A stretch of 64,000 nt of DNA from an uncultured Ignavibacteria bacterium (GCA_937873695.1 CALMYL010000006.1:186001-250000), one strand, 5' to 3'. Counted from the first letter of the stretch, positions 3,557 through 40,582 are shown. Program-made: numbers and translations. The notes: generated by a model not told the origin, from the letters alone.

Positions 3557-3570
3557 TGATTTTTTGCATT

Positions 3571-4758: not shown

Positions 4759-7700
4759 GCTATTTCAGATTTTTTATTTGCTAAATAGTATACTACTGGA
4801 ACTACGATCAGGTTTAAAAATGTGCTTGTTAATAAACCACCCAAAATTACTTTCGCCATAGGACTTTGAATTTCATTACCGGGTAGATCTCCACTTATTG
4901 CCAGAGGAATTAACGCTAATCCAGCCGCAAGTGCTGTCATTAAAATTGGGTTAAGTCTGTCAATTGAACCCTGTATAATTCTGTCATACAATTTCATACC
5001 TTCACGCTTTAATGTATTATATCTTGATACAAGCAATATTCCATTCCTGGTTGCTATACCAAAGAGTGTAATAAATCCAATAATAGATGGGATACTGATT
5101 ATACCTGTTGTAAAGTATATTGCGAATATACCTCCAATTAACGCAAGAGGAAGATTAATAAGCACAATACTCGAAATTTTGAAATCTTTAAATTCCTGGT
5201 AAAGCAAAAGGAAAATTATTAAAAGAGAAAATAGTGACATTATGAATAAGGTTTTCGATGCTTCGGCTTCCGATTCAAATTGTCCGCCGTATTCTATTCT
5301 GTATTCATCTGGTAATTTGATATTCGTTTCAATTTTCTTCTTTATATCTTCAACAACACTCTTTTGATCTCTTCCGGAAACATTTGCTGAAATAACAATT
5401 TTCCTCTGAACATTTTCTCTGTTGATCGTATTTGGTCCGGTAGTGGAAACAATATCGGCTACATAATACAAAGGTACTTTCTGCCCTGTATATGTATCTA
5501 TCAAAGTATTTTTAATATTTTCGATGTTGTTATTAGCAGGATTTTCAAACCTTAAAAGAAGGTCATAGCTTCTGTTGCCTTCAAATACCTGGCTAACATC
5601 TTCACCTGCAAAGGCAACATCAATGAATTCAACATAATCAGAAATTGAAATCCCGTACTTAGTAAGCATTTCTCTTTTTGCTTTTATCTGGATCTGCGGA
5701 ATTTCTACCTGCTGTTCTACGCTTAGATCAACCAAACCTTCAATGGATGAAATCTGGCTTTTTATTTGATTGGCAATTGTGAACATTTTGTTTAAATCGC
5801 TGCCATACAGCTTAATAGCAATATTAGCTCTTGTGCCTGAGAGCATGTGATCTATTCTATGACCAATTGGCTGGCCTATAGTAATATTAACACCTGAAAT
5901 GCCTGCAAGTTTTTTCCTCACATCCTCCATAAATTCATCCCGTGAGCGGTCATCCAGAATAAATGGTGCGTCAATTTCAGATGCATTTACTCCCTGGGCA
6001 TGTTCATCTAATTCCGCCCTTCCTGTTCTTCGGGTAGTTGTTTGTATCTCAGGAATGGTCAAGAGCGCTTCTTCTATTGAAATACCCATTTTATTACTTT
6101 CCTCAAGTGAGGTACCGGGCAATGTAACAGCTCCTATAACCAGAGAACCCTCGTTAAACTCAGGTAAGAAACTCCTTCCAAGATTAAACATTGCGAATAA
6201 CGCAATTACCAATAATGCAATTGAGGAACCGACAACAACTTTTCTTATTTTTAATGCTTTCTCTACTGATGCTTTATAAATGTTGTTAAGATAATTTATG
6301 AACTTATTGCCATGAGCTTGTTTTTCCAATGCTTCATCGTTTGTCAAAAGGTAACTGCATAGAACGGGAGTTAAAGTTATTGCAACAATCAATGAAGCGA
6401 ATAATGAAACAATAAAAGCAATTCCAAGCGGCGCCAGCAGTCTGCCTTCCATCCCTGAGAGAAAAAACAGCGGAATAAATGCTGCAATAATTATAAAAGT
6501 AGCATTTATAACTGAAGGTCTTATCTCAATAGACGCGTTATAGACAACTTCTAATTTATTTTTCTGTTCTGATAGGGGTTTTAAAGAGTTTTCCTTTAGT
6601 CTTTTTAAAACGTTTTCAACATCAATTATTGCATCATCCACAAGTGCACCAATTGCAATAGCCATGCCACCAAGACTCATTGTATTTATTGTTAAACCAA
6701 GCCATTTGAGTGTTAAAACTGCCACAACAAGAGAGATCGGAATAGCTATCAAAGAAATAATTGTAGCTCTTACATTCATTAAAAAAATTATCAGAATAAT
6801 GACAACGAATATTGAGCCTTCAATTAAAGTTTTATTGATATTGCTTATAGACGCGTTAATAAAATCTGATTGCCTGAAAATATTAGTATTTATATGAATA
6901 TCATCAGGCAGATTTTTGGCAAGATCATCAATTGAAACATCTATTTTCTTTGTTAATTCTAAAGTATTGGTGCTTGGCTGCTTCATTACCGTCATTATTA
7001 CAGCGGGTTTACCCTTTAATGAACCATCACCTATTTTAACACTTGGCGCAATTTTAATTTCTGCTATATCTCCTATCTTTACAGGAAGACCATTAACAAC
7101 CTTTATTACCGAATTTCCAATATCATCCACATCACTTGTTCTGCCAATCCCCCTTATGATATATTCCTGGTAATATTGATTTAAAAAACCGCCTGATGCA
7201 TTTTGATTTATGTTTTTACTTGCTTCTATCAGTTCTTTAAGTGAAATATTATAATAACTCATTTTCTGAGGTGATGCCTGTATCTGGTATTTTTTATACT
7301 CACCTCCAATTACTACAACCTGTGAAACCCCGCCAATTGCAAGTAGTGCCGGCCTTAAACTCCAGTCTGCAATTGAACGAAGTTCCATTAAATCGGTTTT
7401 ATCAGAGGTTACGCTTATGAGCATAATTTCACCCATAATAGAAGATTGCGGAGCTAACGTTGGATTTCCAACTCCTTCAGGTAATTGCTCGGTTACGGCT
7501 GCTATCTTTTCTGCTACTATCTGTCTGGCCTGGTATATATCAGTACCCCATTCAAATTCAACCCAGACTATCGAAATGCCCGCTGATGATGAAGATCGAA
7601 CCCGTCTTACACTTGTTGAACCGTTCACTGCTGTTTCAACCTTAAATGTAACTAACTGTTCTACCTCTTCCGGAGCCATTCCGTGAGCTTCTGTTAATAC

Positions 7701-7844
7701 TACAACGGTTGGCGCGGTCAGATCAGGGAAAACATCAACTTCCATATTCACTGCAACGTAAGAACCATTTATGAATAACAGGCTTGAAGCAAGAATTACA
7801 ATAAGCCTGTTTTTGAGTGAAAAATTTACAATTTTATTTAGCAT
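4755..7844 (-). CDS. CusA/CzcA-family heavy-metal RND efflux permease
   Basis: About 1029 residues. The frame can be read further upstream to 7910, but that part overlaps the adaptor gene; the ATG at 7844 (MLNKIVNFSLKNRL) fits the family start and lies 20 bases after the adaptor stop. It shows the canonical RND layout: helix 1, a porter domain from EVDVFPDLTAPTVVV, helices 2-6 with the motif GALVDDAIIDVENV (the proton-relay aspartates of helix 4), a second porter domain (LPEFNEGSLVIGAVTLPGTS) and helices 7-12 (IATRNGILLVSRY). It exports metal cations, by family probably copper, silver, zinc, cobalt or cadmium. It is the second RND pump of this block. Confidence 0.93.
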   Translation of the reverse strand: MLNKIVNFSLKNRLIVILASSLLFINGSYVAVNMEVDVFPDLTAPTVVVLTEAHGMAPEEVEQLVTFKVETAVNGSTSVRRVRSSSSAGISIVWVEFEWGTDIYQARQIVAEKIAAVTEQLPEGVGNPTLAPQSSIMGEIMLISVTSDKTDLMELRSIADWSLRPALLAIGGVSQVVVIGGEYKKYQIQASPQKMSYYNISLKELIEASKNINQNASGGFLNQYYQEYIIRGIGRTSDVDDIGNSVIKVVNGLPVKIGDIAEIKIAPSVKIGDGSLKGKPAVIMTVMKQPSTNTLELTKKIDVSIDDLAKNLPDDIHINTNIFRQSDFINASISNINKTLIEGSIFVVIILIIFLMNVRATIISLIAIPISLVVAVLTLKWLGLTINTMSLGGMAIAIGALVDDAIIDVENVLKRLKENSLKPLSEQKNKLEVVYNASIEIRPSVINATFIIIAAFIPLFFLSGMEGRLLAPLGIAFIVSLFASLIVAITLTPVLCSYLLTNDEALEKQAHGNKFINYLNNIYKASVEKALKIRKVVVGSSIALLVIALFAMFNLGRSFLPEFNEGSLVIGAVTLPGTSLEESNKMGISIEEALLTIPEIQTTTRRTGRAELDEHAQGVNASEIDAPFILDDRSRDEFMEDVRKKLAGISGVNITIGQPIGHRIDHMLSGTRANIAIKLYGSDLNKMFTIANQIKSQISSIEGLVDLSVEQQVEIPQIQIKAKREMLTKYGISISDYVEFIDVAFAGEDVSQVFEGNRSYDLLLRFENPANNNIENIKNTLIDTYTGQKVPLYYVADIVSTTGPNTINRENVQRKIVISANVSGRDQKSVVEDIKKKIETNIKLPDEYRIEYGGQFESEAEASKTLFIMSLFSLLIIFLLLYQEFKDFKISSIVLINLPLALIGGIFAIYFTTGIISIPSIIGFITLFGIATRNGILLVSRYNTLKREGMKLYDRIIQGSIDRLNPILMTALAAGLALIPLAISGDLPGNEIQSPMAKVILGGLLTSTFLNLIVVPVVYYLANKKSEIA

Positions 7845-7863
7845 TGAAATCTCATTTTTAAAA

Positions 7864-9342
7864 TTAATGTTCGTGTCCATGTACAGGCATTGTACCTGAC
7901 ATAGATGCAAGTTTTATCTGGTAAGCGCCTTTTGTTACAACTCTTTCGCCTTCATTTATTCCGGATAGTACCTGTACAAGCATACCATCTGAGCCTGTAA
8001 TGTTTACTTCCCTTTTTTCAAATCCTTCACCGCTTGTTTGCACATAAACATAGAATACCCCCTGTTCTTCAATTAATGCTGAAACGGGTATGACTAAAGC
8101 ATCCGGGATTCTTGTTGTTTTTAAAAAGACCTCTATAAACGTGCCCGGGATCAAATCGTTTCTGTAATCTATTTCAAAATTTATTGGCAGTAAAAGGTTA
8201 TCTTGACCTGTCGATTTACCTGAAATGATATAACGCCCGTTCAGAGATTCAGTATCATATGTTTTACCATCAGGGGTCCTGAAGTTTGCAGACTGTATCT
8301 GGTTAATTATATCAAAATATTTTTGAGATAGATCCGCTTTGATCAAAAGCCTGCTATTTTTTGAAATTACAGCTAATGTTTGACCGGCTTCAACAAACTG
8401 ACCCTGCTGCACATTGATTGTTCTGATAAAACCGCTTATTGGTGAGAACACCTTTATACCAGAATTAGAATAATTTTGTGTTAACGATTTGTACAAGGTT
8501 CTGGATATATCATAAGTATTTTCGATAGCCAGGAATTCTTTTTCTGATATTATCTTATCTTTGACAAGTTCAACTGCTCTTTTGTACTCTGATTCCGCTT
8601 TTTCATACTCATATCTCGCTTCAAGTATTTTGGTATTAATATTCTGTTCATTCAGATTGCTGCCTGAAACAGAAAATAATCCTTCACCTTTAAATACATT
8701 CATTCCACTGATGTATGAATTACCATTAAAATTAACAATACCGCTTGATTTTGCGGATATAACTGCTTCGTCACTTGGAGGAATTAAGACTTGCCCGGTA
8801 GTTCTGATAGTATAAAAGTACATTTGTTTTTTCACTTCCTGATTTGCAAAATCCACTTTCCAAGCCTGTTCTTTGAGGTATGGTATTTCATTCCCTTCCG
8901 GTTCTTCAACCTGACTTTCAATTGCACTCTGTACATTCGGATATACGGTAATGTCATCAATTACTATTTGGTCAGTAAAGTCTTTTGTAACAATATCAAA
9001 TGTTACTTTAAAATTATTTCCGGCTTTAACAGGCTTTATTTCCGGTCTGAATATACCAGGCGGATTAGGAGCATCAACTGAAGCTGAACCATTTTCGGTT
9101 ATAGATACTGTAACCTTGCCTTCATCCAGTGATTTGAATGATTCACCCAATAAAGTTAAATGAGCTGCGAAGCGGGATACTTCACCTACAATAAGCGGCT
9201 TAAATTCAACAAATAGTTCAAGTTTGTTTGAATATATCGTATAGGCGAGCGGTTCAAGCTCACTTACCGGCTTTTCTTCATCTTTTTTATTGCAGTTAAA
9301 GATAATAACTGCAAAAAAAGATATAAGTAATATCTTTTTCAT
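7864..9342 (-). CDS. RND periplasmic adaptor (CusB-like) lipoprotein with extra N-terminal domain and His tail
   Basis: 492 residues. The N-terminal signal ends in a lipobox-like FNC, so it is probably lipid-anchored in the periplasm. Residues about 30-150 form a beta-rich domain preceding the adaptor proper, as seen in many Bacteroidota CusB-type proteins. Then come the membrane-fusion-protein parts: barrel-sandwich hybrid (VISAKSSGIVNF, VFSPISGFIRTI), a short helical hairpin (EARYEYEKAESEYKRAVEL), a beta-barrel and a membrane-proximal domain. The C-terminus GTMPVHGHEH is Met/His-rich, a likely metal-binding tail. It bridges the RND pump and the TolC channel encoded directly downstream. Confidence 0.9.
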   Translation of the reverse strand: MKKILLISFFAVIIFNCNKKDEEKPVSELEPLAYTIYSNKLELFVEFKPLIVGEVSRFAAHLTLLGESFKSLDEGKVTVSITENGSASVDAPNPPGIFRPEIKPVKAGNNFKVTFDIVTKDFTDQIVIDDITVYPNVQSAIESQVEEPEGNEIPYLKEQAWKVDFANQEVKKQMYFYTIRTTGQVLIPPSDEAVISAKSSGIVNFNGNSYISGMNVFKGEGLFSVSGSNLNEQNINTKILEARYEYEKAESEYKRAVELVKDKIISEKEFLAIENTYDISRTLYKSLTQNYSNSGIKVFSPISGFIRTINVQQGQFVEAGQTLAVISKNSRLLIKADLSQKYFDIINQIQSANFRTPDGKTYDTESLNGRYIISGKSTGQDNLLLPINFEIDYRNDLIPGTFIEVFLKTTRIPDALVIPVSALIEEQGVFYVYVQTSGEGFEKREVNITGSDGMLVQVLSGINEGERVVTKGAYQIKLASMSGTMPVHGHEH

Positions 9343-12113: not shown

Positions 12114-12416
12114 ATGTCAAACAGATACTCTTTTAGAGTGCCATACTCGTGCTCTAATTATGGAAGTATGTCCGGAATTGTTTATGCTGATAACCGGGAG
12201 GATGCAATGGAACTTATCGAAAACCGCGAAACCGAAGACGAATGCTACGATGATTCTGATTCTGATAATTATCATTATCATTTCGATGAAGCATCTATTG
12301 AACTCGAGGAAGGAAGCGAAGACAACGAAGATGATTATGAATATTATGGGAATGAAGATTCTCATATTCTATCTGAAATCCCGGCATATTTCCTTGAAAA
12401 CATTTTATTCATTTAA
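12114..12416 (+). CDS. Small highly acidic protein, first gene of the ubiquitin-like cassette
   Basis: 100 residues from the ATG at 12114 (an upstream TTG at 12108 is the only alternative). The N-terminal 40 residues (RYSFRVPYSCSNYGSMSG, IVYADNREDAMELIE) look like a small beta-alpha domain; the middle is very acidic (ECYDDSDSDNYHYHFDE, EEGSEDNEDDYEYYGNED). I recognise no family. It is transcribed from the 12037 promoter and followed 42 bases later by the Ub-like gene, with which it shares the local string GSMSG. A role as regulator, inhibitor or target of the cassette is conceivable but untested. Confidence 0.55.
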   Translation: MSNRYSFRVPYSCSNYGSMSGIVYADNREDAMELIENRETEDECYDDSDSDNYHYHFDEASIELEEGSEDNEDDYEYYGNEDSHILSEIPAYFLENILFI

Positions 12417-12458: not shown

Positions 12459-12719
12459 ATGTGGACAACAGAAACACAGAACGAAACAGAAACAACTAAT
12501 TCCTGTCTTCAGGTAAACTGTAACGGTAACAATTATAATCTCGGCTCAATGTCCGGATTTGAACTTGTTGAAAAGATCAGAAGCATTGCCAGAGAGAATG
12601 TCATAAACAAATACGACATTTTGGATTCGACCGGCACAAAGATTTCCCCCATAGATGTTGAAAATGGTAGATTTACGGGTCCGCTGACAATAATACGATT
12701 TAATGTAGCTGCACTCTAA
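12459..12719 (+). CDS. Ubiquitin-like (beta-grasp) protein candidate
   Basis: 86 residues preceded by AAAAGGAGAAA, a good ribosome-binding site. After a 15-residue polar tail the sequence follows a beta-grasp pattern: two strands (SCLQVNCNGNNYNLG), a helix (GFELVEKIRSIARENV), then strands around YDILDSTGTKISP and ending GPLTIIRFNVAAL. It lacks a C-terminal Gly-Gly, unlike eukaryotic ubiquitin. The main support is context: the next three genes encode E2-like, E1-like and JAB proteins, the set found in bacterial ubiquitin-like operons such as PRTRC. A terminator-like hairpin directly follows. The fold assignment is inference from pattern and needs structural comparison. Confidence 0.55.
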   Translation: MWTTETQNETETTNSCLQVNCNGNNYNLGSMSGFELVEKIRSIARENVINKYDILDSTGTKISPIDVENGRFTGPLTIIRFNVAAL

Positions 12720-12745
12720 ATCATATCTTTTCAACATGGCAAAAT

Positions 12746-12771
12746 AAGGGACATCTTAAAAGGTGTCCCTT
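12746..12771 (+). terminator. Terminator-like hairpin between the Ub-like and E2-like genes
   Basis: A 10-bp stem AAGGGACATC (12746-12755) / GGTGTCCCTT (12762-12771) with loop TTAAAA, followed by TCTTATTAATT. It lies 27 bases after the Ub-like stop and 35 before the E2-like start. The T-tract is imperfect, so it may terminate only part of the transcripts. Confidence 0.55.
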
Positions 12772-12806
12772 TCTTATTAATTGCAAATAATTCACACAAA
12801 ATAAAA

Positions 12807-13607
12807 ATGGAACAACAAATTGTTGAAAATGACCCAAAATCAGGGTTTTTGATATCAGTAAATGGAGAAACACCAAATTCTGAAACTACAGGGTATGAAA
12901 AGAACCATATTATTGAAATACTGGAATCTGAGGTAAATTCGCAGGAAATACTCACAAAGCTGTGGAATACTGAGCAGGAGAAGATCAAGGTTAAGACAAT
13001 AATCCTGGATTCAAGGCTGGATTTCATAAACTCGGCTAAGAAGCTTCAGGAGGTATTTCAATCTGAGTTAACGGCTACTGTAAATAAGCTGAATGAGAAG
13101 TTTAACTCTGAAGTATTGAAGATCAAGCAGCTATACAGAAAAGAATTAATTGGCACTGGTTTAATTGAATTGGTAAATGACATAAGTGAAGAAGGCTGGG
13201 TATTAGTTATGAAACAAAACTCAGTGAATCTCTATAAATGTTACAATCCTGCTTATCCAGTTAAGCTGGGTTATTATTCATCAGGAAGTATCAGAGAGTA
13301 CTCAGACCCAGTAACCTACCTCAGAGGTATATATGTAAACATACTACATCCAATGATCACAACCGGAACAATCTATCTGCAAACAGAAGGCGGAACCCAT
13401 CCTAATTGTGCCTCCAAAGGATTCGGAGCATCTTGCCCTGGAACACTGCAAGATCGAGAGATTTCAGTTACTGATACAAATGAACTAATCTGCTTATTGG
13501 AAGAGATTTCTAATACATATGAGAAAATGCATCTGGATTCAGCTTATTACATCCCATCAGAAAATTATATAGAAAGGAACGAAACACCTCAATGGACAAC
13601 ACAATAA
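12807..13607 (+). CDS. E2-like ubiquitin-conjugation protein candidate
   Basis: 266 residues. The first 115 are largely helical and charged. The C-terminal part carries THPNCASKGFGASCPGTL: the HPN triad (198-200) followed after 9 residues by Cys210 matches the E2 pattern in which HPN precedes the catalytic cysteine by a similar distance. PRTRC protein B and related bacterial E2-like proteins share this arrangement. The protein would accept an activated Ub-like protein from the E1 encoded downstream. It overlaps the E1 gene by 16 bases, so translation is coupled. Cys201, next to HPN, is an alternative nucleophile. The E2 call rests on this motif and on context. Confidence 0.6.
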   Translation: MEQQIVENDPKSGFLISVNGETPNSETTGYEKNHIIEILESEVNSQEILTKLWNTEQEKIKVKTIILDSRLDFINSAKKLQEVFQSELTATVNKLNEKFNSEVLKIKQLYRKELIGTGLIELVNDISEEGWVLVMKQNSVNLYKCYNPAYPVKLGYYSSGSIREYSDPVTYLRGIYVNILHPMITTGTIYLQTEGGTHPNCASKGFGASCPGTLQDREISVTDTNELICLLEEISNTYEKMHLDSAYYIPSENYIERNETPQWTTQ

Positions 13608-14245
13608 GCGACATATATACAAGACAGGAGGATCTGCTGCAAAAGGATTTTAAAGATGAATCGGCATTAGTTATAGGTTTAGGCGGAATAGGTTCCTGGG
13701 TAGCCTTAAATCTTGCGCTGTTAGGGGTAGGAACGCTTGTATTGGTAGATCCCGATACAATTGAAGCTTCAAATTTAAACAGGACTCTTTATAAGCTGAG
13801 TGATATTACCCGGAAGAAAACTGAAGCCATAAAAGACCTTATATCCGAAAGGCGGCAAGATACAATAGTTTTAGCTATTAATGATTATTTCTCACCGGAA
13901 ATGCTGGAAAAATATTCAGTGGATTACATTTTTGACTGCACTGATACTTTAAACACCAGGGATAAACTCAAAGATATAAGCTTTCATGTTAACTATGTTA
14001 AATGTGGTTATGACGGCTATTCAGCTACAATATCAATCAATGATTTTGAATCTGGCAGTTGGGGAGAAGGCGGTTCTTATACAACTGTACCAAGTTTCTT
14101 TGGAACTCCACAGGTAATATCTGCTCTGGTCATAACTGAAATGCTAATTAATGTTCAGATCGAAACCAGAACAATTAATTTCGAAGTAGACAAGGTTCTG
14201 GGAGAGCTTTCAGGAAAGGGGATAACTGAAAATGCAGAGAACTGA
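13592..14245 (+). CDS. ThiF/E1-family adenylyltransferase (E1-like)
   Basis: 217 residues forming a single Rossmann-type adenylation domain: nucleotide loop GLGGIG (29-34), LVDPDTIEASNLNR (51-64) with the aspartate and Asn-Arg that bind ATP in ThiF/MoeB/E1 enzymes, Lys75/76 and FDCTD (114-118). These enzymes adenylate the C-terminus of a Ub-like protein. There is no CxxC zinc pair; Cys138 (YVKCGY) is a possible thioester cysteine. It is shorter than MoeB, resembling PRTRC ThiF proteins. Overlaps of 16 and 14 bases with E2-like and JAB genes make a tight operon. Confidence 0.85.
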   Translation: MDNTISDIYTRQEDLLQKDFKDESALVIGLGGIGSWVALNLALLGVGTLVLVDPDTIEASNLNRTLYKLSDITRKKTEAIKDLISERRQDTIVLAINDYFSPEMLEKYSVDYIFDCTDTLNTRDKLKDISFHVNYVKCGYDGYSATISINDFESGSWGEGGSYTTVPSFFGTPQVISALVITEMLINVQIETRTINFEVDKVLGELSGKGITENAEN

Positions 14246-14861
14246 AAACCAATGGGAATCAGAATTGAATATAATTTCATGTATTCAGGTAGTAATCCCG
14301 GTAAAGCTGTATTTGGTATGTAATCAAATTGCAGGTAAAGTAGGCGGCAATGAATTTTCTATAGTGACAGATATCAAAGAAAAGGATAACCAAAATATTT
14401 TACTTACTGACGATTTCTATATTCCCAAGCAGAAGGTTTATCCAAGTAATATTGATTACCTGCCTGATGTATACAATCATTCAGTCTGTATTCATCGGCA
14501 TCCTGATGGTTGTAATGGCTTCAGTTCTACTGATAAAGTATACATCAATCAAAACTTTGTACTCTCGCTGCTATATACCCGAAGGGATGGTTTTGTAAAT
14601 GGCATATACAATATGCGGCTTGATGATAAAACAATGATCCAGTTACCGGTTGAAATTAAAGTTGACTATAACTTGGAAGAAATAAACATCGAAAACATCC
14701 TCGAGGAGAAAGATTTATTCACAGATGATGATTTGCCTGCAAGATACAAAGGTAAAAAGCATTTGAATAAGAAAGAAGAAGATCTGGACGAGATTGAAAG
14801 CAGAATTGATTTTCTGGAGGATGCAATGTATTACAGCCGGTATGATTTGGGAAATTTTTGA
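14232..14861 (+). CDS. JAB/JAMM-family metallopeptidase of the ubiquitin-like cassette
   Basis: 209 residues. The JAMM zinc signature is complete: Glu41 (GNEFSIV) and H88-x-H90-x7-S98-x2-D101 in HRHPDGCNGFSSTD. JAB enzymes remove Ub-like proteins from targets or process their C-termini. The C-terminal 50 residues are acidic and coiled-coil-like (KKEEDLDEIESRIDFLEDA). In PRTRC cassettes a JAB-type protein likewise accompanies ThiF and E2-like proteins. It overlaps the E1 gene by 14 bases. If the Ub-like protein here needs C-terminal trimming, this enzyme is the obvious candidate; that is inference. Confidence 0.8.
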   Translation: MQRTENQWESELNIISCIQVVIPVKLYLVCNQIAGKVGGNEFSIVTDIKEKDNQNILLTDDFYIPKQKVYPSNIDYLPDVYNHSVCIHRHPDGCNGFSSTDKVYINQNFVLSLLYTRRDGFVNGIYNMRLDDKTMIQLPVEIKVDYNLEEINIENILEEKDLFTDDDLPARYKGKKHLNKKEEDLDEIESRIDFLEDAMYYSRYDLGNF

Positions 14862-15006: not shown

Positions 15007-15035
15007 TAGGGGGAGTCGTTAATCGGGTCCCCCTA
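15007..15035 (+). terminator. GC-rich hairpin upstream of the DUF2958 gene
   Basis: TAGGGGGA (15007-15014) pairs perfectly with TCCCCCTA (15028-15035) across a 13-base loop. There is no T-tract after it, so it may be a regulatory hairpin in the leader of the DUF2958 gene (start 15060) rather than a terminator. Confidence 0.4.
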
Positions 15036-15059: not shown

Positions 15060-15383
15060 ATGGAATTATTCACAAAAGAAATAATAGATAAAGCTAAGGC
15101 TCAATATCATTTAGGTTCCGATATGGAAAGCCAAATGATTATTGCTAAGTTCTTCAATCCTACGGGAGCCGGGACCTGGTATCTGATGAATATTGACCCG
15201 GAGGATGAGAATTACTGCTGGGGAATTGTTGACCTTTTCGAAGTAGAAGTAGGCAGCTTCTCGAAGTCAGAACTTGAAAACTTTAAAGGTCCTTTAGGAC
15301 TCGGCATTGAAAGAGATTTATATTTTGAGCCCATTAATACAAAAGAGCTGTGGAATAAGTTAATGACTAATGCTCAGGTATAA
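15060..15383 (+). CDS. DUF2958 domain protein
   Basis: 107 residues from the ATG at 15060; the frame is open back to 14949 but that part includes the hairpin and matches nothing. MELFTKEIIDKAKAQY, KFFNPTGAGTWYLMNIDPED, WGIVDLFEVEVGSFSKSEL and GLGIERDLYFEP match the DUF2958 pattern (KFF.P.g.wTWYv, ELG.FsL.EL, GL.IERDL.F). The family is common on plasmids and integrative elements and often near PRTRC genes; its biochemical role is unknown. Its presence supports a mobile origin for the ubiquitin-like cassette. Confidence 0.8.
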   Translation: MELFTKEIIDKAKAQYHLGSDMESQMIIAKFFNPTGAGTWYLMNIDPEDENYCWGIVDLFEVEVGSFSKSELENFKGPLGLGIERDLYFEPINTKELWNKLMTNAQV

Positions 15384-17171: not shown

Positions 17172-17379
17172 AATTTGTTTTTATTTGTTCGCAGTATCTT
17201 ATAGATCTAGATCCCTTCTCTTTACCTCAAATAGGGATAAAATTGCTACGATTGAATCTAAAAATAAAGTAGAGCTATATATTTAAATTAAACGTACATT
17301 TTATCCTTGACAGGAAGTTTCATTATCCGTAGTTTTGAGAAAGTTTTTAAGTAGAGTTAAAACTATCAATAAAAAAACA

Positions 17380-17952
17380 ATGCTTTTAGGCGAAATTGCT
17401 GAAATAACAACCGGACTCAATTACAAACAAAAGGATCTGACGGATAATCCGTTAGATATTCCATTAATTCAGGTCAAGGATATCCAAAACAATACTTTAC
17501 ACAAAAATACGGTAATTAATATAAATAAAGAATACATTGATAAGCGTTTAATGCTTAAGCCGCAAGATATTTTGTTTGCAGCTAAGGGAAACCGTAACTT
17601 TGCATATCATTACCAGGGAGAGCTTGGCGCTGCAACGCCATCATCTACTTTCTTTATCCTGCGCATTAAAGAAAACGATGTTCTGCCCGACTATTTAACA
17701 TGGTATCTAAATTCAAAACCGGCGCAGGATTTTTTTAGAGACGGTGTTCATGGAACATTCATTCCAAGTATCTCGAAAGCTGTAATTTCAAAAATGAATA
17801 TTCCTATACCGGATATTGAAACACAAGTAATGATAATCAAGCTTGGTAGCTGGCAGATAGTAGAGAAGAGCTTAGCAGAGCAAATAATTAATAAACGGGC
17901 AATTTTGATAAATGAAATTATTAATAGAAAATTAAGTAACAGTAATGAATAA
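17380..17952 (+). CDS. hsdS: Half-length type I restriction specificity subunit (single TRD)
   Basis: About 190 residues from the ATG at 17380 (a TTG at 17335 would add 15 residues). It begins MLLGEIAEITTGLNYKQK and continues IPLIQVKDIQ, LKPQDILFAAKGN and FIPSISKAVISKMNIPIP, the hallmarks of one HsdS target-recognition domain followed by its conserved helix region. Full HsdS proteins have two such halves; half-subunits can dimerise to recognise palindromic sites. It overlaps the HsdM start by 8 bases. A full two-TRD HsdS lies two genes downstream, so the system has a spare specificity unit. Confidence 0.75.
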   Translation: MLLGEIAEITTGLNYKQKDLTDNPLDIPLIQVKDIQNNTLHKNTVININKEYIDKRLMLKPQDILFAAKGNRNFAYHYQGELGAATPSSTFFILRIKENDVLPDYLTWYLNSKPAQDFFRDGVHGTFIPSISKAVISKMNIPIPDIETQVMIIKLGSWQIVEKSLAEQIINKRAILINEIINRKLSNSNE

Positions 17953-19450
17953 CGAAAGAAAAATACCAACACAGGAAGAAGTTAACAATGCAGCATGGAA
18001 AGCATGTGACACTTTCAGAGGAGTCGTAGATCCGGACCAGTATAAAAACTACATTCTCGTCTTCCTGTTTATTAAGTATATAAGCGATGTGTGGCAGGAT
18101 AAAAAGGAAGAGTTCATGGCCAAATACAAGAACGATGAAGAGAGAGCCAGCCGCGCATTAAAACGTGAACGATTTATTGTGCCGGAGGAAAGCACTTACT
18201 TGTATCTGTATGAACACAGGAATGATACTAATATAGGTGAGTTAATTAACATTGCTACTGCTCATCTAGAAGAAGCAAACAGCGGCAAGCTTGAAGATGT
18301 ATTCCGCGGGATTGATTTTAACTCTGAAATAAACCTTGGCGAGCCAAAGGATAAGAACCGAAGGCTTAAAACACTGATTGAAGATTTCTCAAACCCGGTG
18401 CTAGATTTTCGTCCATCGCATATTGGTGAGCGTGATGTAATTGGAAACACATATGAGTATCTGATATCAAATTTTGCTGGTGATGCAGGTAAAAAGGGTG
18501 GGGAATTTTTTACTCCTTCTGAAGTATCCGAGCTTCTTGCGAGGTTGTTAAATCCTAAAGAGAAAAACAGGATTTATGATCCTACGTGCGGTTCCGGTTC
18601 ATTGCTTGTTAAGGTAGCAAGCCAGGTTGGCTCTTCAAACTTTTCTCTTTATGGGCAGGAATCCAACGGGAACACTTACGCTTTATGCAAAATGAATATG
18701 TTCCTGCATAAGATAGATAATGCTAAAATTGAGTGGGGTGATACAATAAACAGCCCTAAGCATGTTGAAAAAGATAAACTAATGAAGTTTGATATTGTAG
18801 TAGCTAATCCGCCGTTCTCACTGGATAAATGGGGTGCTGAAGATGCTGCTAACGATAAGTTTAACCGCTTCTGGCGCGGAATACCGCCAAAGAGCAAAGG
18901 TGATTATGCATTTGTAACACATATGATCGAATCGATGAATGAAACAGGCAGGGCAGGCGTTATAGTGCCTCACGGTGTTTTATTCAGGGGAGCCGCTGAA
19001 GGAAGAATACGCCAGCAATTACTTGAAGAGAACCTGATTGAAGCTGTGATTGGTTTACCTGCTAACCTGTTCTTTGGCACCGGAATACCTGCAGCAATAC
19101 TCATTTTTAATAAACAGAAGAAGAATACCGATGTGCTATTTATTGATTCCAGCCGTGAATATGAAAGTGGAACTAACCAGAATAAACTTCGTAATGATGA
19201 TATTGAAAAGATTGTAAATACATACAAAGCTTGTGAGACTATTGATAAATACTCCACTAGAGTTACAATTGAAGAGATCCATGAAAATGAATATAACTTA
19301 AACATTCCCCGCTATGTAGATATTTTTGAGGAAGAGGAACCGGTTGATATAGATAAAACACGGCGTGAAATTACTGAGCTTGAAATAGAGCTTGCTGAGG
19401 TTAGAAATGAAATGGATAAATATCTTGAAGAATTGGGGTATAAGGCATGA
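17945..19450 (+). CDS. hsdM: Type I restriction-modification DNA methyltransferase subunit
   Basis: 501 residues. The N-terminal HsdM helical domain (ACDTFRGVVDPDQYKNYILV) is followed by the N6-adenine methyltransferase domain: S-adenosylmethionine motif DPTCGSGSLL (212-221) and catalytic NPPF (288-291). GKKGGEFFTPSEVSELLARL is the typical HsdM segment before motif I. It methylates adenine at sites chosen by HsdS. It overlaps the half-HsdS by 8 bases and the next gene by 4, placing it in one operon with both specificity genes and two unrecognised genes. Confidence 0.95.
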   Translation: MNNERKIPTQEEVNNAAWKACDTFRGVVDPDQYKNYILVFLFIKYISDVWQDKKEEFMAKYKNDEERASRALKRERFIVPEESTYLYLYEHRNDTNIGELINIATAHLEEANSGKLEDVFRGIDFNSEINLGEPKDKNRRLKTLIEDFSNPVLDFRPSHIGERDVIGNTYEYLISNFAGDAGKKGGEFFTPSEVSELLARLLNPKEKNRIYDPTCGSGSLLVKVASQVGSSNFSLYGQESNGNTYALCKMNMFLHKIDNAKIEWGDTINSPKHVEKDKLMKFDIVVANPPFSLDKWGAEDAANDKFNRFWRGIPPKSKGDYAFVTHMIESMNETGRAGVIVPHGVLFRGAAEGRIRQQLLEENLIEAVIGLPANLFFGTGIPAAILIFNKQKKNTDVLFIDSSREYESGTNQNKLRNDDIEKIVNTYKACETIDKYSTRVTIEEIHENEYNLNIPRYVDIFEEEEPVDIDKTRREITELEIELAEVRNEMDKYLEELGYKA

Positions 19451-20217
19451 AAGAAATTATTCACAGTATTAAGGATGGCTTTTGGAATGCTTATCGAGAG
19501 TATGAAACATTTAGACCTCCTGACAGTGATTTTCCAACTAAAATTACTGAATATTTATTTACGGTAAATGTTGCAAGAGCGCTTAATGAACAATTTCCAC
19601 GTAAGGGAAGTTGTGGAATTTTTGTGGAGTATCCCTATTTACAATTTTTACAATTGGCGAAATCAAAATATATTACTGAAAATATACTTAAAATGGAAAA
19701 AGATGTTACCCGAAAAGAAAGAAATAAATATAGGAATAAATCACGAATAGACATCGTATTTCAGGGTAGAGCAATAGGCCCGCAATATACTGAAGATGTA
19801 TCAAACTTTGCTATCGAACTAAAAGGTATTAACCCTCCATCAAATAAAGTTAAAGCCGATCTTGAAAGGTTAAAGTATGCATTATTAGTAAAAAACAAAG
19901 AAGGAAAAAATTATATATCTCAATGTTATTGCGCCTATTTAAAGCGAATTGATTCAATGAAAAAAGTTTATGACGGTAAAGATAAAACTAGAGAAGTTGA
20001 GAAATACAACAAGAAGCTTGATGAGATATTAAAAATATTATTTAAGGGATCAAAGATAGATTATAAAATTAAAATAAAAGATTTTGATGCAACTGAATTA
20101 AAAGATTATTTAAGTGGTTACCCGGAAGAAGATTTATCTGAAGAAGGAGCAAAAGGAAAAACTGGCTGCATTATGAGTGTAATAATTAGTTTAAAAAAAG
20201 CAGATGAAAGACCTTAA
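19447..20217 (+). CDS. Unrecognised protein embedded in the hsd operon, possible PD-(D/E)XK nuclease fold
   Basis: 256 residues. The central segment reads KSRIDIVFQ then NFAIELKGINPP: an aspartate on a strand followed about 30 residues later by E-x-K is the arrangement of PD-(D/E)XK nucleases. The N-terminus (FWNAYREYETFRPPDSDFPT) and the Lys-rich C-terminal half match nothing I know. It overlaps HsdM by 4 bases and HsdS by 14, so it is made in step with the methylase and specificity subunits. It is not a standard part of a type I system. The nuclease reading is from motif alone. Confidence 0.6.
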   Translation: MKEIIHSIKDGFWNAYREYETFRPPDSDFPTKITEYLFTVNVARALNEQFPRKGSCGIFVEYPYLQFLQLAKSKYITENILKMEKDVTRKERNKYRNKSRIDIVFQGRAIGPQYTEDVSNFAIELKGINPPSNKVKADLERLKYALLVKNKEGKNYISQCYCAYLKRIDSMKKVYDGKDKTREVEKYNKKLDEILKILFKGSKIDYKIKIKDFDATELKDYLSGYPEEDLSEEGAKGKTGCIMSVIISLKKADERP

Positions 20218-21412
20218 TAAAAATAAAATAGGTTACAAACATACGCCTGTTGGTTGGATACCGGAAGACTGGGAAGTAAAACCGTTAGGAAATTTTATCA
20301 GCATTAAGAGCGGTGATTCTCCAGCAAACTATACCATGGGCTCAACGGGATCCTTTCTATACTTAAAAGTTGAAGATTTAAATAATTCAAACAAATATCA
20401 ATACTTAAGCCGTTTTTATGTTGAAGAAGGCAGTAATAAAATTGAAAAAGGTAGTATCATTTTTCCCAAAAGAGGGGCAGCTATATTAAATAATAAAGTG
20501 AGAATTCTAAGCAAAGATTCATATATGGATTCTAATTTAATGAGTATTAAAGTAAACTCAGATGAGGTTTTTAATGAATTTCTTTATTATTATATAATTT
20601 TTGTAAATCTTTCAAAAATTGCAGATACATCAACAATACCTCAAATCAATAACAAACATATTGAACCTTATAAATTTAGAAAACCTTCATATACTGAACA
20701 AGTTAATATTGCTAACATACTGTGCAGTTGGGATAAAGCAATTGAAACCACCCAAAACCTTATTGCCGCAAAAGAGCGGCTTAAAAAAGGTTTAATGCAG
20801 CAATTACTTACCGGAAAGAAACGCCTGCCAGGATTTAATGGTGAGTGGATAAAATGCAGATTAGGAGACATCACAAAGAATTTCTCAAGAAGGAATAAAA
20901 GTGGAATTGAAGCAAAAGTTTATTCGGTAACAAATTATGATGGCTTTGTTTTGCAGTCAGAACATTTTGAAAGAGAAATTGCTGGAGATGATCTTTCAAA
21001 TTACAAAATTATCAAAAAAGGTGAGTTTGCTTATAATCCAGCCAGAATTAATGTTGGATCTATTGCTCAATTCAAAGAAGATATTGGAATCATAAGCTCT
21101 TTATATGTTTGTTTTTCAGTATGCAAGGAGTTAAACGATGTGTTTCTAAGAAATTTTTTAGAACTAGAACAAACTAAATATTATATTAATAGTCTTGGTG
21201 AGGGAGGGGTAAGAGTATATTTGTGGTATCCATTATTTTCAAAAATTAAAATTCAATTACCACCGATTGAGGAACAGTTAGCAATAGCAAATGTTTTGAC
21301 TGTAGCGGATAAAGAAATAGAATTACTAAAATCCCAACTTAAATTTTATAAGCAGCAGAAAAAAGGGCTTATGCAGGTTTTGCTTACCGGGGCAGTGAGG
21401 GTTAAAATTTAA
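20204..21412 (+). CDS. hsdS: Type I restriction specificity subunit, two TRDs
   Basis: 402 residues with the two-fold HsdS layout: TRD1 opening VGWIPEDWEVKPLGNFISIK, first conserved region EQVNIANILCSWDKAIETT with LKKGLMQQLLTGKKRLPGF, TRD2 from GEWIKCRLGDITKNF, and second conserved region EEQLAIANVLTVADKEIELL ending KKGLMQVLLTGAVRV. The paired LMQxLLTG segments mark the helical spacers that set the distance between the two half-sites. It lies 12 bases before the 1271-residue gene. Confidence 0.95.
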   Translation: MKDLNKNKIGYKHTPVGWIPEDWEVKPLGNFISIKSGDSPANYTMGSTGSFLYLKVEDLNNSNKYQYLSRFYVEEGSNKIEKGSIIFPKRGAAILNNKVRILSKDSYMDSNLMSIKVNSDEVFNEFLYYYIIFVNLSKIADTSTIPQINNKHIEPYKFRKPSYTEQVNIANILCSWDKAIETTQNLIAAKERLKKGLMQQLLTGKKRLPGFNGEWIKCRLGDITKNFSRRNKSGIEAKVYSVTNYDGFVLQSEHFEREIAGDDLSNYKIIKKGEFAYNPARINVGSIAQFKEDIGIISSLYVCFSVCKELNDVFLRNFLELEQTKYYINSLGEGGVRVYLWYPLFSKIKIQLPPIEEQLAIANVLTVADKEIELLKSQLKFYKQQKKGLMQVLLTGAVRVKI

Positions 21413-21424
21413 ACTTTTAATATT

Positions 21425-24400
21425 ATGGAACAAACAGAAGACTTTAAAAAAGAATTTGAAGAACATTTGAAAAAGCAACAAAGCAAATTTGATAAGAATT
21501 ATGTAAATTCTATTTCTGACCTGAAAGATTTATTTACCAAATATAGTATAAAAGATATCCTTGATTCATTATTTGCAACTTCCTTGTGGTTGAAAAATAT
21601 TTCTGCCCAAGTAAGGATACAATTGGCATATATGGTATTTACATCCCTTGATAAAAACAGTTTCAAGCAAGATGATAAAATAGCTGGATATAATGATTTC
21701 AAGCAATTCTGTAGTAAATTAATTAAAATATTACCTGATTTTCCAATGCTTGAAGATTACGTTCCTGAACCTGATTGGGGCGAGATTAAATATTATCATA
21801 ATAAAAAGATATACAAGATGTTTTATGGTAACAATTTCGATGGCATATATGAATATTTAGAAGCTTTTCAAATTCTTCATTGCACATTTGATGATACATA
21901 TCTTTCTGTGACTGGTAGATCACCCATTCATGAATTGGAAAATGTTTTATCATTACAGGAATCTATAATAGATGATATTGGAAAGAATTATGATACTTCT
22001 GTTGCAATGGATATTGAACCTGGTTATCTTGAAGTTCCGGAAGGTTGGTTCTGGGAAAATTGCACAACCTATCAACAAAGTAACCGAGCAAATAATTTCG
22101 CACCTGCGTTAAAGGATAATTTTACTTTAACCATAGGTGATACTAAACCTGAAGAATTAGATGTTAATAATTTCTTAAATGATTTTCATGAAGATAAGAA
22201 TTTCCGTTTTATGTTTATTGAATCTGAAGGTATACTATATCCTATACTCCCTCGCAGATATTTATCAATGCTAATTGAAGTATGGGGTGATATATTTCAA
22301 AACAATAAGAATGAAGTTTTAAAACAAGAACCGATCTATGAACTTAAGCTAAATCAAAAACTTTGCTCATACATTGAAAATAGAATACCGATGAAAGATG
22401 TTTATGAAATCGTTAGTCCTTTTGATAAAGCAATTAATAAGCCTTCTGATTCGATATATTCCTGTTCTATTCAAGTTAAAAATGATCTTTATTTAATATA
22501 TTTATTAAAGCCCTCCTATGGCGAGAAAGAAATTGAAACAAATTTAAATGATTTTGTAAATAAACTAAATGACGATGTTAAGATACTAGAGCAAGAACCT
22601 AGAACACTATTATTGAGAAAAGACAGCCAAGTAGTAGCATTTGTCCCAAAGCATGAACGGGCAATTAAGTTAAATACCCGTTTCTTAATTCTTATACCAA
22701 GAATTTCGTATTCTGTTGGATTTTTTCCAATACCAGAAGAACTTTATAAAAAGGTCTTTTTACTTGAAGACTTTCTTGGAATAATTGATGAAATTAATGG
22801 AATCGAAGAAATGAAAGATTTCCTTGAATTCATGTATGACGAAAAAAATGGTCGCGGTCCATTAAATACAGCTCTGGATATGTTTGGTGCGTTTAGGGAA
22901 TCACATGGTTTGCTTATACCCGGTGCAACTGAGCCCACAATGGTTATTCTAGATTCAGGTTGGGGATCAAATTTTCGTTATAAAAATCTTAAAGAATTTT
23001 GGTCTAAGTTTCCAGCAAACAATCTATTTAGTCATCCAAGATCATATGAAATAGACGATGTTGGACGTGGTTTAATAAGGTTAGTTTCCAGAAATGTTAA
23101 GATGAGTATACTGCATGCTCGGGTTGATAAGACTAATATTTTCATAAATGCTCCTTTTACAGAAATGGGTTTAGATGATGTTAGAATTTCCGACTTATTA
23201 ATGCAAATTTTGCAAGATGGATTTTTAACATATAATGATAATCTAACAAAATTCAAATTATTCCAAAATCATACATTGATGCATATTTTCATTTTTCCCT
23301 ATAGAATAACCAATAACGATAGTTTGAAGCACTTAGAACATCTGGATCCTGAAGAAGATTATTTCAAAATGGATTGGGATTTTGCAATCAAGGATATTCC
23401 TGCGATTAGAATTGGATATAATTATGATAAAGTATTCATAGCGTTAAAAGAATCGAACGATAGGAGCTTTGAACTTGAATTCTTTCGCAGCACAATAGAA
23501 TTTGCAAGCAGTATAAACGCTGACGATAGTTCGGGAGTTATAAAATTAATCGAAAGTGATACTACTAAGCTACCGCGTTTCACAATTAATTTATTTGATA
23601 AGCTGGCCGCATTTCCTGAACATGAAAAAGTTATTTTACCAGAACAGGGTGATTTTAAGGCTTCAAAGAAATTGATAGCTCAATTAGCATTGAAAAATGA
23701 TATCAAACCGGGGAAATATTCTGTTGATAGTGCTAAAATCAAATTAAATAAGTTAAAGTCATCATTAGTTGATCATATTAATAATAATGTTAATCAATTA
23801 GACTTTGAAAAATCCATCGGTTATTTAATATCTAAAACGGATGCTCTTAATCAACAGTATGAGTTAAAAAAAATAACTTATGAAAAATCGATAAGGCATG
23901 AAGTTGATTATGCAAGAGAAGAAAAATATGCTGAAAATCACACTGAATATATTAAAAGTCACAGGAATTTCAGATATCTAATTGAAAAATTGGTTCAGCT
24001 TTCTCCAAAAGGATCTGATTTACTTAATGAAACCAACCTCAAAGAATTGCTAGCAATAATAGATTGGTTACACGTTATTCAAATTGCCAGCGATATGATA
24101 CACTATTCTATAGCGCCAACTGGTATTAACGTAGAGGACGATTTTAGAGTGGATGTTGAATATAAAGAAGACGTTGAATCTATGGAAGACAGTTTTGGAA
24201 GAACGGAAGCTCTATTAGATTTAGAATTGATTGGAAAACCTAAAGATCGAGTTGATTCAACCCGAGATATTACTGTATACTTGGATAAAATGGAAAGGGC
24301 TTTCAGAAAAGACTTGGGTTTTGGCTTAAGAAATCTTGTTAATTGTATGGAAGTTTTAAAATTATGGCCAAGTCACTACAAGGCAGACAAAGAGAGTGTA

Positions 24401-25240: not shown

Positions 25241-25259
25241 TATTCATATTTCCAAACAT

Positions 25260-25283
25260 CGTTTTCCTGACATCAGGAAAACG
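25260..25283. repeat. Perfect inverted repeat between the 1271-residue gene and hsdR
   Basis: Arms CGTTTTCCTG (25260-25269) and CAGGAAAACG (25274-25283) around ACAT. No T-tract follows. Its position 124 bases upstream of the hsdR start suggests an operator or a processing/attenuation hairpin separating hsdR from the rest of the operon. Confidence 0.5.
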
Positions 25284-25406
25284 TTAATAGGAAATTAACC
25301 ATAATTTTCACCAAAAAGCTTAATAAATCGTTTTATTATATATAACTATTTAATAATTAATGTTTTATGAAGAATGTCTAATTCCACATATATTTCACCA
25401 TAAATC

Positions 25407-39147: not shown

Positions 39148-40203
39148 ATGGCTTCATTATATAAAAAAAGAAATACGTGGTATATAGATTACTTTCTTGG
39201 GAAAAAGAAAATCTCAAAAAACACTCACTTAATTGCTTCAGAAGAAAATAGATCTAAAGCTGAAAAACTAAGGAAGGAAATCGAAAATTTATTGAAAGAG
39301 CAACATGAATCAGAAAAAGATCTTGGCAATATAATATCTAAAGAAACAACTTTGAATAAAGCTATAACAATGTTTGCTGATACTTATGTTGTTGGAAGAT
39401 CCCAATCTCATGTTGAAAACTTTGATTATGTTATGAGACGATTTAAATCAATAGTTTCTGGAAATACAAATGTTAAAGATTTAAAACCAGAACATGTAAC
39501 ACAGTTCGTTTTACAAATGAAAAGAGAATTATCCCAGGCTACACAGGTGACATATTTTCAGTATTTGGCTAGCTTCTTAACATATCTTAAGGAAAATGAA
39601 TTTATTACTGATGTCCCAATAGGCAAGGGAATAAGACCTAAAAAAGCAATTAAGAACATTATTAGCTTTGATCCAAACGATTTAAGTCGGATATTAGATG
39701 AAGCTAAGAAACGGGATATTAGATATTTTCATGCATTTATGATGTTCTTATTAACTGGTCAACGGCCTGGTGATGTATTAAGGTTACAGGTTCGTGACAT
39801 AGATTTTCATCGAAAAATTATGTATTTTCGTGTTTCTAAGACAGCAAGCGAGTTCAAATTTCCTATTTATGGTAATTTTGAGGGATTTTTGAGAGAGGAA
39901 TTGAAATTATCGGAAAACTCTGAAAAAGATGCTTATCTGTTTCCAGGTTTAACTGTAGGAGCTGTTGGAAAGGCCTTTAGGAAGATTAAGAAGGTATTAG
40001 GGCTCAGTAGAAAGCATTATTATACTCTCAAAACATTCCGCAAAAACTTTGCTACGGATATGAGTAAGATGGGAATGACGATTCAGGAAGTTCAAGCTTT
40101 GCTGGACCATAAAAGTCCATCTACAACTTTAAGGTATTATGCTGATGTCAGAGCAGAGGAGCTTTTGAAGAAAATTGACAAGCTCCAGTCAGATAATTGC
40201 TGA
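39148..40203 (+). CDS. Tyrosine recombinase (phage/ICE integrase)
   Basis: 351 residues with an N-terminal AP2-like/arm-binding part (MASLYKKRNTWYIDYFLGKK), a SAM-like core-binding domain and the catalytic domain: Arg206 (TGQRPGDVLRL), Lys231, K295-T-F-R298 in place of the usual HxxR, His321 (LLDHKSPSTT) and Tyr330 or Tyr331 (LRYYAD). It catalyses site-specific integration and excision of the island. The gene points towards the tRNA-Pro, which starts 89 bases after its stop. Three 12-bp-phased TTGCTGACA repeats overlap its 3' end. Length is normal, so it is probably active. Confidence 0.92.
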   Translation: MASLYKKRNTWYIDYFLGKKKISKNTHLIASEENRSKAEKLRKEIENLLKEQHESEKDLGNIISKETTLNKAITMFADTYVVGRSQSHVENFDYVMRRFKSIVSGNTNVKDLKPEHVTQFVLQMKRELSQATQVTYFQYLASFLTYLKENEFITDVPIGKGIRPKKAIKNIISFDPNDLSRILDEAKKRDIRYFHAFMMFLLTGQRPGDVLRLQVRDIDFHRKIMYFRVSKTASEFKFPIYGNFEGFLREELKLSENSEKDAYLFPGLTVGAVGKAFRKIKKVLGLSRKHYYTLKTFRKNFATDMSKMGMTIQEVQALLDHKSPSTTLRYYADVRAEELLKKIDKLQSDNC

Positions 40204-40274: not shown

Positions 40275-40292
40275 AAATCAAAAGAAATTTTT

Positions 40293-40366
40293 CGGGGTGT
40301 GGCTCAGCCCGGTAGAGCGCCTGGTTCGGGACTAGGAGGCCGGAGGTTCGAATCCTCTCACCCCGA
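40293..40366 (+). tRNA. tRNA-Pro, anticodon CGG
   Basis: 74 bases with a full cloverleaf: acceptor CGGGGTG / CACCCCG, D-stem GCTC/GAGC, anticodon stem CCTGG/CTAGG around loop TTCGGGA (anticodon CGG), 5-base variable loop, and T-arm GGAGG TTCGAAT CCTCT. C1-G72 pairing and discriminator A fit proline. The 3' CCA is not encoded. The integrated island lies on its 5' side, which is unusual since most elements replace the 3' end of a tRNA. Confidence 0.95.
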
Positions 40367-40380
40367 CTTAAGTAACAATA

Positions 40381-40417
40381 ATGGCTCAGAAGTAGCATTT
40401 TTCTGAGCCATTTTTTT
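40381..40417 (+). terminator. Terminator of tRNA-Pro
   Basis: ATGGCTCAGAA (40381-40391) pairs perfectly with TTCTGAGCCAT (40401-40411), with the T-run continuing to 40417. Confidence 0.9.
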
Positions 40418-40430
40418 AATTTTTTGAGAA

Positions 40431-40482
40431 CCGGAGGTTCTCCCGAAGGGACTCCCTTGGAGGAATCCTCTCACCCCGACTT
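40431..40482 (+). repeat. Partial duplicate of the tRNA-Pro 3' end, interrupted by 22 bases
   Basis: CCGGAGGTTC (40431-40440) repeats tRNA positions 40340-40349, and GAATCCTCTCACCCCGACTT (40463-40482) repeats 40350-40369. Between the two parts is a 22-base insert (40441-40462) containing TCCCGAAGGGA and GGGACTCCC palindromes. A second terminator resembling the first follows. This is a scar of tandem duplication or of an integration/excision event using the tRNA 3' end. Confidence 0.85.
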
Positions 40483-40489
40483 TTTTCTT

Positions 40490-40522
40490 AAGCTCAGAAG
40501 TTATTTCTTCTGAGCTTTTTTT
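40490..40522 (+). terminator. Second terminator after the duplicated tRNA end
   Basis: AAGCTCAGAAG (40490-40500) pairs with CTTCTGAGCTT (40507-40517), followed by a T-run to 40522. The stem shares GCTCAGAA with the first tRNA terminator, so terminator and tRNA end seem to have been duplicated together. Confidence 0.85.
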
Positions 40523-40582
40523 ATGAAATGCGGATAAATTACTTAATGAATGTTTAGGCATAAAGGTCAGTATTGCAGTGAT

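Follow-up and report, generated by a model that had tools for sequence, protein, structure and literature searches.

The locus described here raises the question of whether a run of short genes in a 64,000-nt stretch of DNA from an uncultured Ignavibacteria bacterium (GCA_937873695.1, CALMYL010000006.1:186001-250000) encodes a complete ubiquitin-style tagging pathway and, if so, to which of the known bacterial systems that pathway belongs. The whole stretch is referred to as the window, and coordinates are counted from its first letter. A first-pass annotation had placed a ubiquitin-like protein (Ubl), an E2-like conjugating enzyme, an E1/ThiF activating enzyme and a JAB protease at positions 12459-14861, and the current analysis confirmed this interval as a compact gene set for ubiquitin-style tagging and untagging, with all of the claimed open reading frames (ORFs) present at their positions and with overlaps, announced as 14-16 bases, of 16 bp between the E2 and E1 genes and 14 bp between the E1 and JAB genes:

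12459..12719, + strand: Ubl modifier, 86 amino acids (aa), ending RFNVAA followed by a single L; identified by AlphaFold2, Foldseek, hhalign and invariant residues
12807..13607, + strand: E2-like conjugating enzyme, 266 aa, with HPN198-200, Cys210 and a long N-terminal helix
13592..14245, + strand: minimal E1 (ThiF/MoeB-type adenylation domain), 217 aa, with GLGGIG and a KxGYDG signature and no conserved catalytic Cys
14232..14861, + strand: JAB/JAMM metalloprotease, 209 aa, with an intact HxHx7SxxD motif (HRHPDGCNGFSSTD); E41, H88, H90, S98 and D101 are invariant

We consider it likely that these genes constitute a complete, mobile, single-Ubl cassette for conjugation and deconjugation, representing a branch that is not recognised in the libraries searched and that is common to bacterial islands and uncultured phages. 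Within the cassette the E1 alone was recognised by family libraries (Pfam ThiF 1.7e-29), while PADLOC returned generic E1 matches only and the JAB protein matched Pfam Prok-JAB at 0.013, below the cut-off. Alignments of 13-15 relatives per family, with 36-56% identity to the window proteins, revealed that the catalytic residues are invariant across these diverged sequences and have therefore been selected rather than kept by chance. The adenylation motifs of the E1, the HPN and Cys of the E2 and the JAMM motif of the protease are all intact, as is generally expected of a conjugation cascade.

Concerning the modifier, the AlphaFold2 model of the Ubl displays a beta-beta-alpha-beta-alpha-beta arrangement (core predicted local distance difference test score, pLDDT, of about 81-86), and Foldseek matched it mostly to ubiquitin, UFM1, SUMO and the bacterial Bil Ubl with probabilities of mostly 0.9-1.0 and E-values of about 0.01-0.05. 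The 86-residue protein is thus a beta-grasp protein, as had been predicted and as befits the modifier of a Ubl-conjugation system. A sequence profile search of the PDB with the Ubl gave no real matches; against the Ubls of the phage cassettes described below, hhalign gave a match of 96% (E=2e-9), and one of these phage proteins in turn showed a weak Pfam ThiS match.

The E2 assignment is best approached through homology. H198, P199, N200, C210 and W263 are invariant in 15 E2s, and the AlphaFold2 model contains a confident core (pLDDT about 90) after the long helix, for which all structural matches are weak, human UBE2S being the best and Citrobacter BubB and UBCH7 ranking lower. A stronger case is made by a chain of profile matches which leads from the bacterial E2 to a phage E2 (hhalign 94%, E=1.6e-7), from there to another group of phage E2s (97%, 6.7e-10), and from two members of that group to UQ_con (E=0.004 and 0.02, both below the cut-off); these two members carry textbook HPNx7CxG motifs, for example HPNISGEGEVCLG. 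The E2 core that had been predicted for the 266-residue protein is therefore upheld by its invariant HPN and Cys together with this chain and the weak UQ_con, UBE2S, BubB and UBCH7 matches.

In the E1, the invariant set comprises R11-Q12, GxGGxG, D53 and D55 (DxD), SNLNR, K76, D118, K137 and GYDG, which is the motif set of the adenylating enzymes MoeB and ThiF, and the PDB matches include ThiF, MccB, MoeB and others, with BubCD also among them. No Cys is conserved throughout the E1s, the most frequent column holding one in 12/15, and 217 aa leave little room for a Cys domain, so the Ubl is probably handed directly from the adenylate to Cys210 of the E2. The window JAB strongly matches the phage JABs (down to E=5e-35).

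Several observations weigh against this interpretation. The Foldseek E-values of the Ubl reach only about 0.01, structural support for the E2 fold, beyond its motif, is weak (best PDB E=0.14), and PDB sequence profile searches found no match to any solved E2 or JAB. A Cys is present at the position of window residue C116 in 12/15 E1s, and the missing conserved Cys does not in any case prove direct transfer. The Ubl could also carry sulfur, as its counterparts in ThiS/MoaD pathways do, or act without covalent attachment, and the association with DNA metabolism discussed below is circumstantial, as restriction systems occur nearby just as often.

The C-terminus of the Ubl is the most distinctive feature of the cassette:

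12708..12716, + strand: codons of the Ubl C-terminal A84 and A85 and of the trailing Leu; in relatives the AA is invariant and is followed by 0-4 variable residues

The ending NVAAL without Gly-Gly had been correctly read in the first-pass annotation, which took it for an oddity; it is not a degenerate end, as Ala-Ala is conserved in 13 Ubls, in which W2, R80, N82, A84 and A85 are invariant. All 13/13 bacterial Ubls terminate in RFN(V/A)AA (RYN in two), followed by nothing, A, L, EVNI or SIAV. The phage Ubls end NKAA, NEAA, NKAAM, NKAA plus a longer tail, EKAA, NKAG, DVAG, EVAGA, EEAGRANR, DKGA or NAGGC, that is, in xA[A/G] or GG plus a tail. Since the hhalign match between bacterial and phage proteins spans these ends, Ala-Ala is, as judged by alignment, located at the Gly-Gly site of the Ubl, and the variable residues past it suggest trimming by the JAB protease. 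An alanine-ended conjugation would be chemically plausible by analogy with two precedents. In type II CBASS (cyclic oligonucleotide-based antiphage signalling system) the cGAS that becomes conjugated has Gly or Ala as its natural last residue, and a Gly-to-Ala change increases the Cap2-cGAS thioester and reduces conjugation without abolishing it (PMC10097602), while isopeptide bonds formed by ubiquitin G76A are more resistant to deubiquitinases (PMC5298413). CBASS thus already shows that alanine is usable at a conjugated end; beta-grasp Ubls are expected to end in glycine, and a conserved natural branch ending in alanine would make the chemistry of the last residue testable in nature.

Relatives were sought in 99 genomes around the window's own, from which 14 other loci were fetched. 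E2 relatives were present in eight genomes besides that of the window, in 1-3 copies each; all eight belong to a single other family of the order. The cassette was absent from 12 same-genus genomes (0/12), and of 296 genomes sampled evenly across the phylum, that of the window was alone in giving a match. At the 14 other loci the order acidic protein-Ubl-E2-E1-JAB holds wherever the contig reaches, so that, counting the window, gene order is co-conserved at 15 bacterial loci in nine genomes. At one locus (L022) the space between the acidic genes and the E2 yielded no Ubl. A collection of plasmids gave no E2 or JAB match and two weak generic E1 matches, and the only result of a single-sequence scan of genome contigs (L003) was an unrelated Pseudomonas E1 gene.

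At least 15 distinct uncultured phage contigs (IMG/VR) carry Ubl, E2, E1 and JAB genes in the same order as in bacteria. These contigs were retrieved with the E1 alignment and the set was extended with profiles of the phage E1 and JAB, whereas a tblastn scan of the viral contigs with the E2 alignment found nothing; the cassettes compared were L034-L039, L066, L068, L073, L076, L087, L145, L149 and L154. Besides gene order, they share with the bacterial cassettes the KxGYDG signature in most E1s, the xA[A/G] Ubl ends, a hairpin after the Ubl gene and, in several cases, a Trp motif. In contrast to the bacterial cassettes, one of their E2 groups has a large N-terminal region, the acidic protein and DUF2958 are lacking, and SbcD/SbcC or replication genes adjoin: SbcD/SbcC-like neighbours were identified in L154 (by PHROGs) and in L034-L037 and L066 (by position and sequence), and other neighbours include the terminase large subunit (L068), a clamp loader (L145) and an RNA polymerase beta subunit (L035). 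The E1 tree gathers the bacterial sequences into a single group (86/94), next to phage sequences of greater diversity, and all of them are far from those of the ParB-related, ThiF-related cassette, PRTRC (100/100). Isolate phage genomes contained no such cassette and no match to the window E1, and the hits that they gave to the phage-cassette E1s were only of MoeB/ThiF type or unannotated. Literature coverage being partial, the phage branch may in part have been described already.

Two further genes belong to the immediate surroundings of the bacterial cassettes:

12114..12416, + strand: acidic companion, first cassette gene, 100 aa from ATG 12114 (the most likely start)
15060..15383, + strand: DUF2958 protein, conserved downstream neighbour (PF11171 1.1e-18); the ORF opens at 14949 and the start is most likely 15060

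The acidic protein had been called unrecognised, which holds insofar as its sole Pfam match is weak (Imm32, E=0.011, below the cut-off), but it is not an orphan: its family, with a preserved N-terminus MNKYxVxIPYxYxxYGxLxxxVYA..EEA, occurs at 12/14 other bacterial loci, the remaining two being interrupted by contig ends. It is absent at PRTRC and viral loci, and at L021 and L022 the acidic gene is tandemly duplicated ahead of the cassette. DUF2958 adjoins the cassette at six other loci (L020, L021, L023, L025, L028 and L029), in one of them as a truncated frame. At a second, overlapping set of six loci the cassette is followed by a Mu Gam-like protein (Pfam 4.9e-13 in L027) and by an unnamed protein of ~181 aa, and at five of these DUF932 is also found (4.4e-57 in L027). 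Type I restriction-modification genes lie in the fetched flanks of 5/15 loci, and a type ISP system, represented by the restriction-modification protein at L030:2-2740, is near the cassette at a sixth.

The cassette works like several described systems and is a member of none of them, because its E2 motif, its Ubl ending or the absence of fusions sets it apart in each case. The Bub system (BubABCD), which we take to be the type called 6e, is likewise a bacterial Ubl-E1-E2-JAB pathway, and BubB and BubCD are among the weak structural and E1 matches given above. In type 6e, however, the JAB is fused to the E1, the Ubl is a poly-Ubl and the E2 is inactive (PMC1779556), whereas here the genes are separate, the Ubl is single and the E2 retains HPN and Cys. 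Bil (BilABCD) is also an operon of separate Ubl, E1, E2 and JAB genes, but the Ubl protein BilA is a tandem of two Ubl domains, CEHH is the motif of BilB, and BilD pairs an inactive domain with a Cys domain (PMC11354881), as opposed to the single 86-aa Ubl, the HPN...C E2 and the 217-aa E1 without a Cys domain in the cassette. In type II CBASS, Cap2 and Cap3 bring about E1/E2 conjugation via a C-terminal Gly or Ala and its reversal by a JAB (PMC10097602), but cGAS rather than a beta-grasp protein is conjugated and E1 and E2 form one polypeptide; no nucleotidyltransferase of the CD-NTase type was identified among the conserved neighbours of the cassette. The proposal of a divergent branch stands, the branch being none of PRTRC, Bil or Bub, and the antiphage role that had been suggested is not established.

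That the genes might represent a divergent PRTRC cassette is very improbable. PRTRC (row 6d, Iyer et al. 2006; TIGR03736-03738) does consist of the same four enzyme types, with separate Ubl, E2, E1 and JAB genes on mobile elements, and the E1 is related to PRTRC ThiF (hhalign 96%, E=4e-9); moreover, DUF932 accompanies 8/10 PRTRC loci as well as this cassette, which suggests a common niche in mobile DNA. Yet the PRTRC_ThiF model TIGR03736 scores the cassette E1 at 21 bits against a cut-off of 144.75, in keeping with the long branch and separate clade in the E1 tree. In hhalign comparisons with five PRTRC families, the E2, Ubl and acidic protein showed no similarity to PRTRC-B, -C, -E or -F. The E2 of PRTRC (protein B) has no upstream HPN and a conserved downstream His (PMC1779556, row 6d), while HPN upstream of Cys is invariant in the cassette E2s; PRTRC-C ends GTKG in 10/10 where the cassette Ubl ends AA(x), and PRTRC has the extra, alpha-helical companion proteins E and F, neither of which the acidic protein matches by hhalign. 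No ParB-related gene was matched among the window proteins scanned, the whole island not having been searched for ParB. An improbable reading, if slightly less so, is that the Ubl is not conjugated at all but serves a ThiS/MoaD-like pathway, either carrying sulfur or as a non-covalent partner: the short MoeB/ThiF-like E1 without a Cys domain and the ThiS match of one phage Ubl would fit, whereas a dedicated E2 with invariant HPN and Cys and a JAB are always present and no rhodanese or biosynthetic enzymes are conserved at cassette loci.

A Bil/Bub-type antiphage defence, in which infection would trigger attachment of the Ubl to proteins of the phage or the host, deserves more weight, though we regard it as rather unlikely. 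The restriction-modification genes at six loci, the mobile island and the sporadic distribution with several copies per genome are what such a system might show, while uncultured phages bear the same cassette, often beside SbcCD genes of their own, no effector gene is conserved alongside it, the Bil hallmarks are missing, and PADLOC and NCBIfam scans detected no defence family beyond generic E1 matches. The proximity of some phage cassettes to SbcCD and of bacterial ones to Gam-like, DUF932 and DUF2958 proteins raises the question of whether Ubl tagging also serves mobile DNA, and not host defence only.

If the preferred reading of a complete conjugation cassette is followed, the JAB protease would trim the short tail past Ala-Ala, and the E1, probably as a MoeB-like homodimer, would adenylate the Ala-terminated Ubl by means of its conserved residues and pass it from the adenylate to Cys210 of the E2, which may then attach it to a target from which the JAB could take it off again. 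The likeliest role, which we propose tentatively, would be to act on behalf of the mobile element or phage by tuning some protein involved in DNA-end or replication metabolism, a role at which the Mu Gam-like and DUF932 genes of bacterial loci and SbcD/SbcC beside phage cassettes hint.

Two additional features, a hairpin and a Trp motif, bear on how the proteins might be dosed and brought together:

12746..12771, + strand: terminator-like hairpin in the Ubl-E2 gap, 11-bp stem followed by a T-rich tail (z=-5.0)
15007..15035, + strand: strong hairpin after the JAB gene and before DUF2958 (z=-4.3)
12462..12470, + strand: Trp motif W-T-T at the Ubl N-terminus (W2 invariant in the 13 Ubls)
13590..13604, + strand: Trp motif Q-W-T-T-Q at the E2 C-terminus, overlapping the E1 start (W263 invariant)

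A hairpin is found in the Ubl-E2 gap at 13/13 testable bacterial loci, the window included, with unrelated sequences and z of about -1.7 to -4.6 (mean about -3.2), whereas acidic-Ubl control gaps average near 0; it also follows the Ubl in 9/12 phage loci. This conservation points to the Ubl being produced in larger amounts than the enzymes, in which case termination at the hairpin would uncouple the dose of modifier from that of the enzymes.

The Trp motif takes the form M-x0-1-W-(N/T/D) at the Ubl start, W plus 2-4 residues at the E2 end (15/15) and W-(E/D)-S ahead of the JAB core. The E2-type W-x-x end was observed in 15/15 E2s as against 1/226 other ORFs of the bacterial loci, an enrichment that is descriptive, the regular expression having been composed after the sequences were seen. 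Several phage E2s end similarly (VWTNG, LWTT, VWRT, VWST, VWMT, VWTI and LWKPT), and some phage Ubls have the Ubl-type Trp start. As the Ubl start and E2 end are of low confidence in the models, it is plausible that the motif is a docking peptide; on the loose ends of the Ubl, the E2 and possibly the JAB it might dock on a common partner; as the E1 is without the motif, it is a candidate for this partner. In the JAB the motif may have a structural role. The W-N-S end of an AAA ATPase at 53140 was judged a chance occurrence, since it is outside the island. In one phage contig the ORF just upstream of the Ubl (L145:3853-4482) ends with three Trp motifs, LWNAS, VWTVDD and KWTTESS, and its product is a possible partner or substrate.

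Taken together, these features could describe a phage and island pathway in which an Ala-Ala Ubl is loaded onto the E2 by an E1 without an E1 thioester, a fixed terminator sets the modifier:enzyme ratio, and a common W-x-T/S peptide at the Ubl, E2 and JAB ends docks on one pocket, a scheme that we put forward tentatively and hold to be rather unlikely as a whole. Were it true, neighbouring phage proteins sharing the Trp tail, such as that of L145, would be candidate partners or substrates. The conserved post-Ubl hairpin and common Trp motif offer simple handles for experiments.

The cassette is carried in the window genome by an island of ~60 kb inserted in tRNA-Pro, the right end of which lies in the window:

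39148..40203, + strand: phage-type tyrosine integrase at the right island end, beside tRNA-Pro (PF00589 2.3e-24)
40289..40331, + strand: right attachment repeat, an exact 43-bp direct repeat constituting the first part of tRNA-Pro

The left 43-bp copy is situated about 60.1 kb upstream, outside the window (G000:C6:166206-166248). The same-genus genome G005 lacks the island, because there the left flank directly adjoins the tRNA and right flank. In addition to the Ubl cassette, the cargo includes metal-efflux genes (RND-type operons at 2366-9342 and in L166) and a type I restriction system (17335-28607), which comprises a short specificity-like gene, HsdM, a Tin-like protein (PADLOC 6e-21), HsdS, a 1271-aa protein without a Pfam match and HsdR. 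The island also has a second, short RNA polymerase beta' of about 1056 aa (31635-34808, - strand) with NADIDGD replacing NADFDGD, and the genome has, in addition, an rpoC of normal length (open frame of 1429 aa), 47% identical to the short beta' over the core. Earlier insertions at this site are hinted at by two further sequences: part of the tRNA-Pro 3' end is copied just past the tRNA (40368-40560), and an attachment-like repeat, the third, is found 17 kb to the left of the island (G000:C6:149311-149352).

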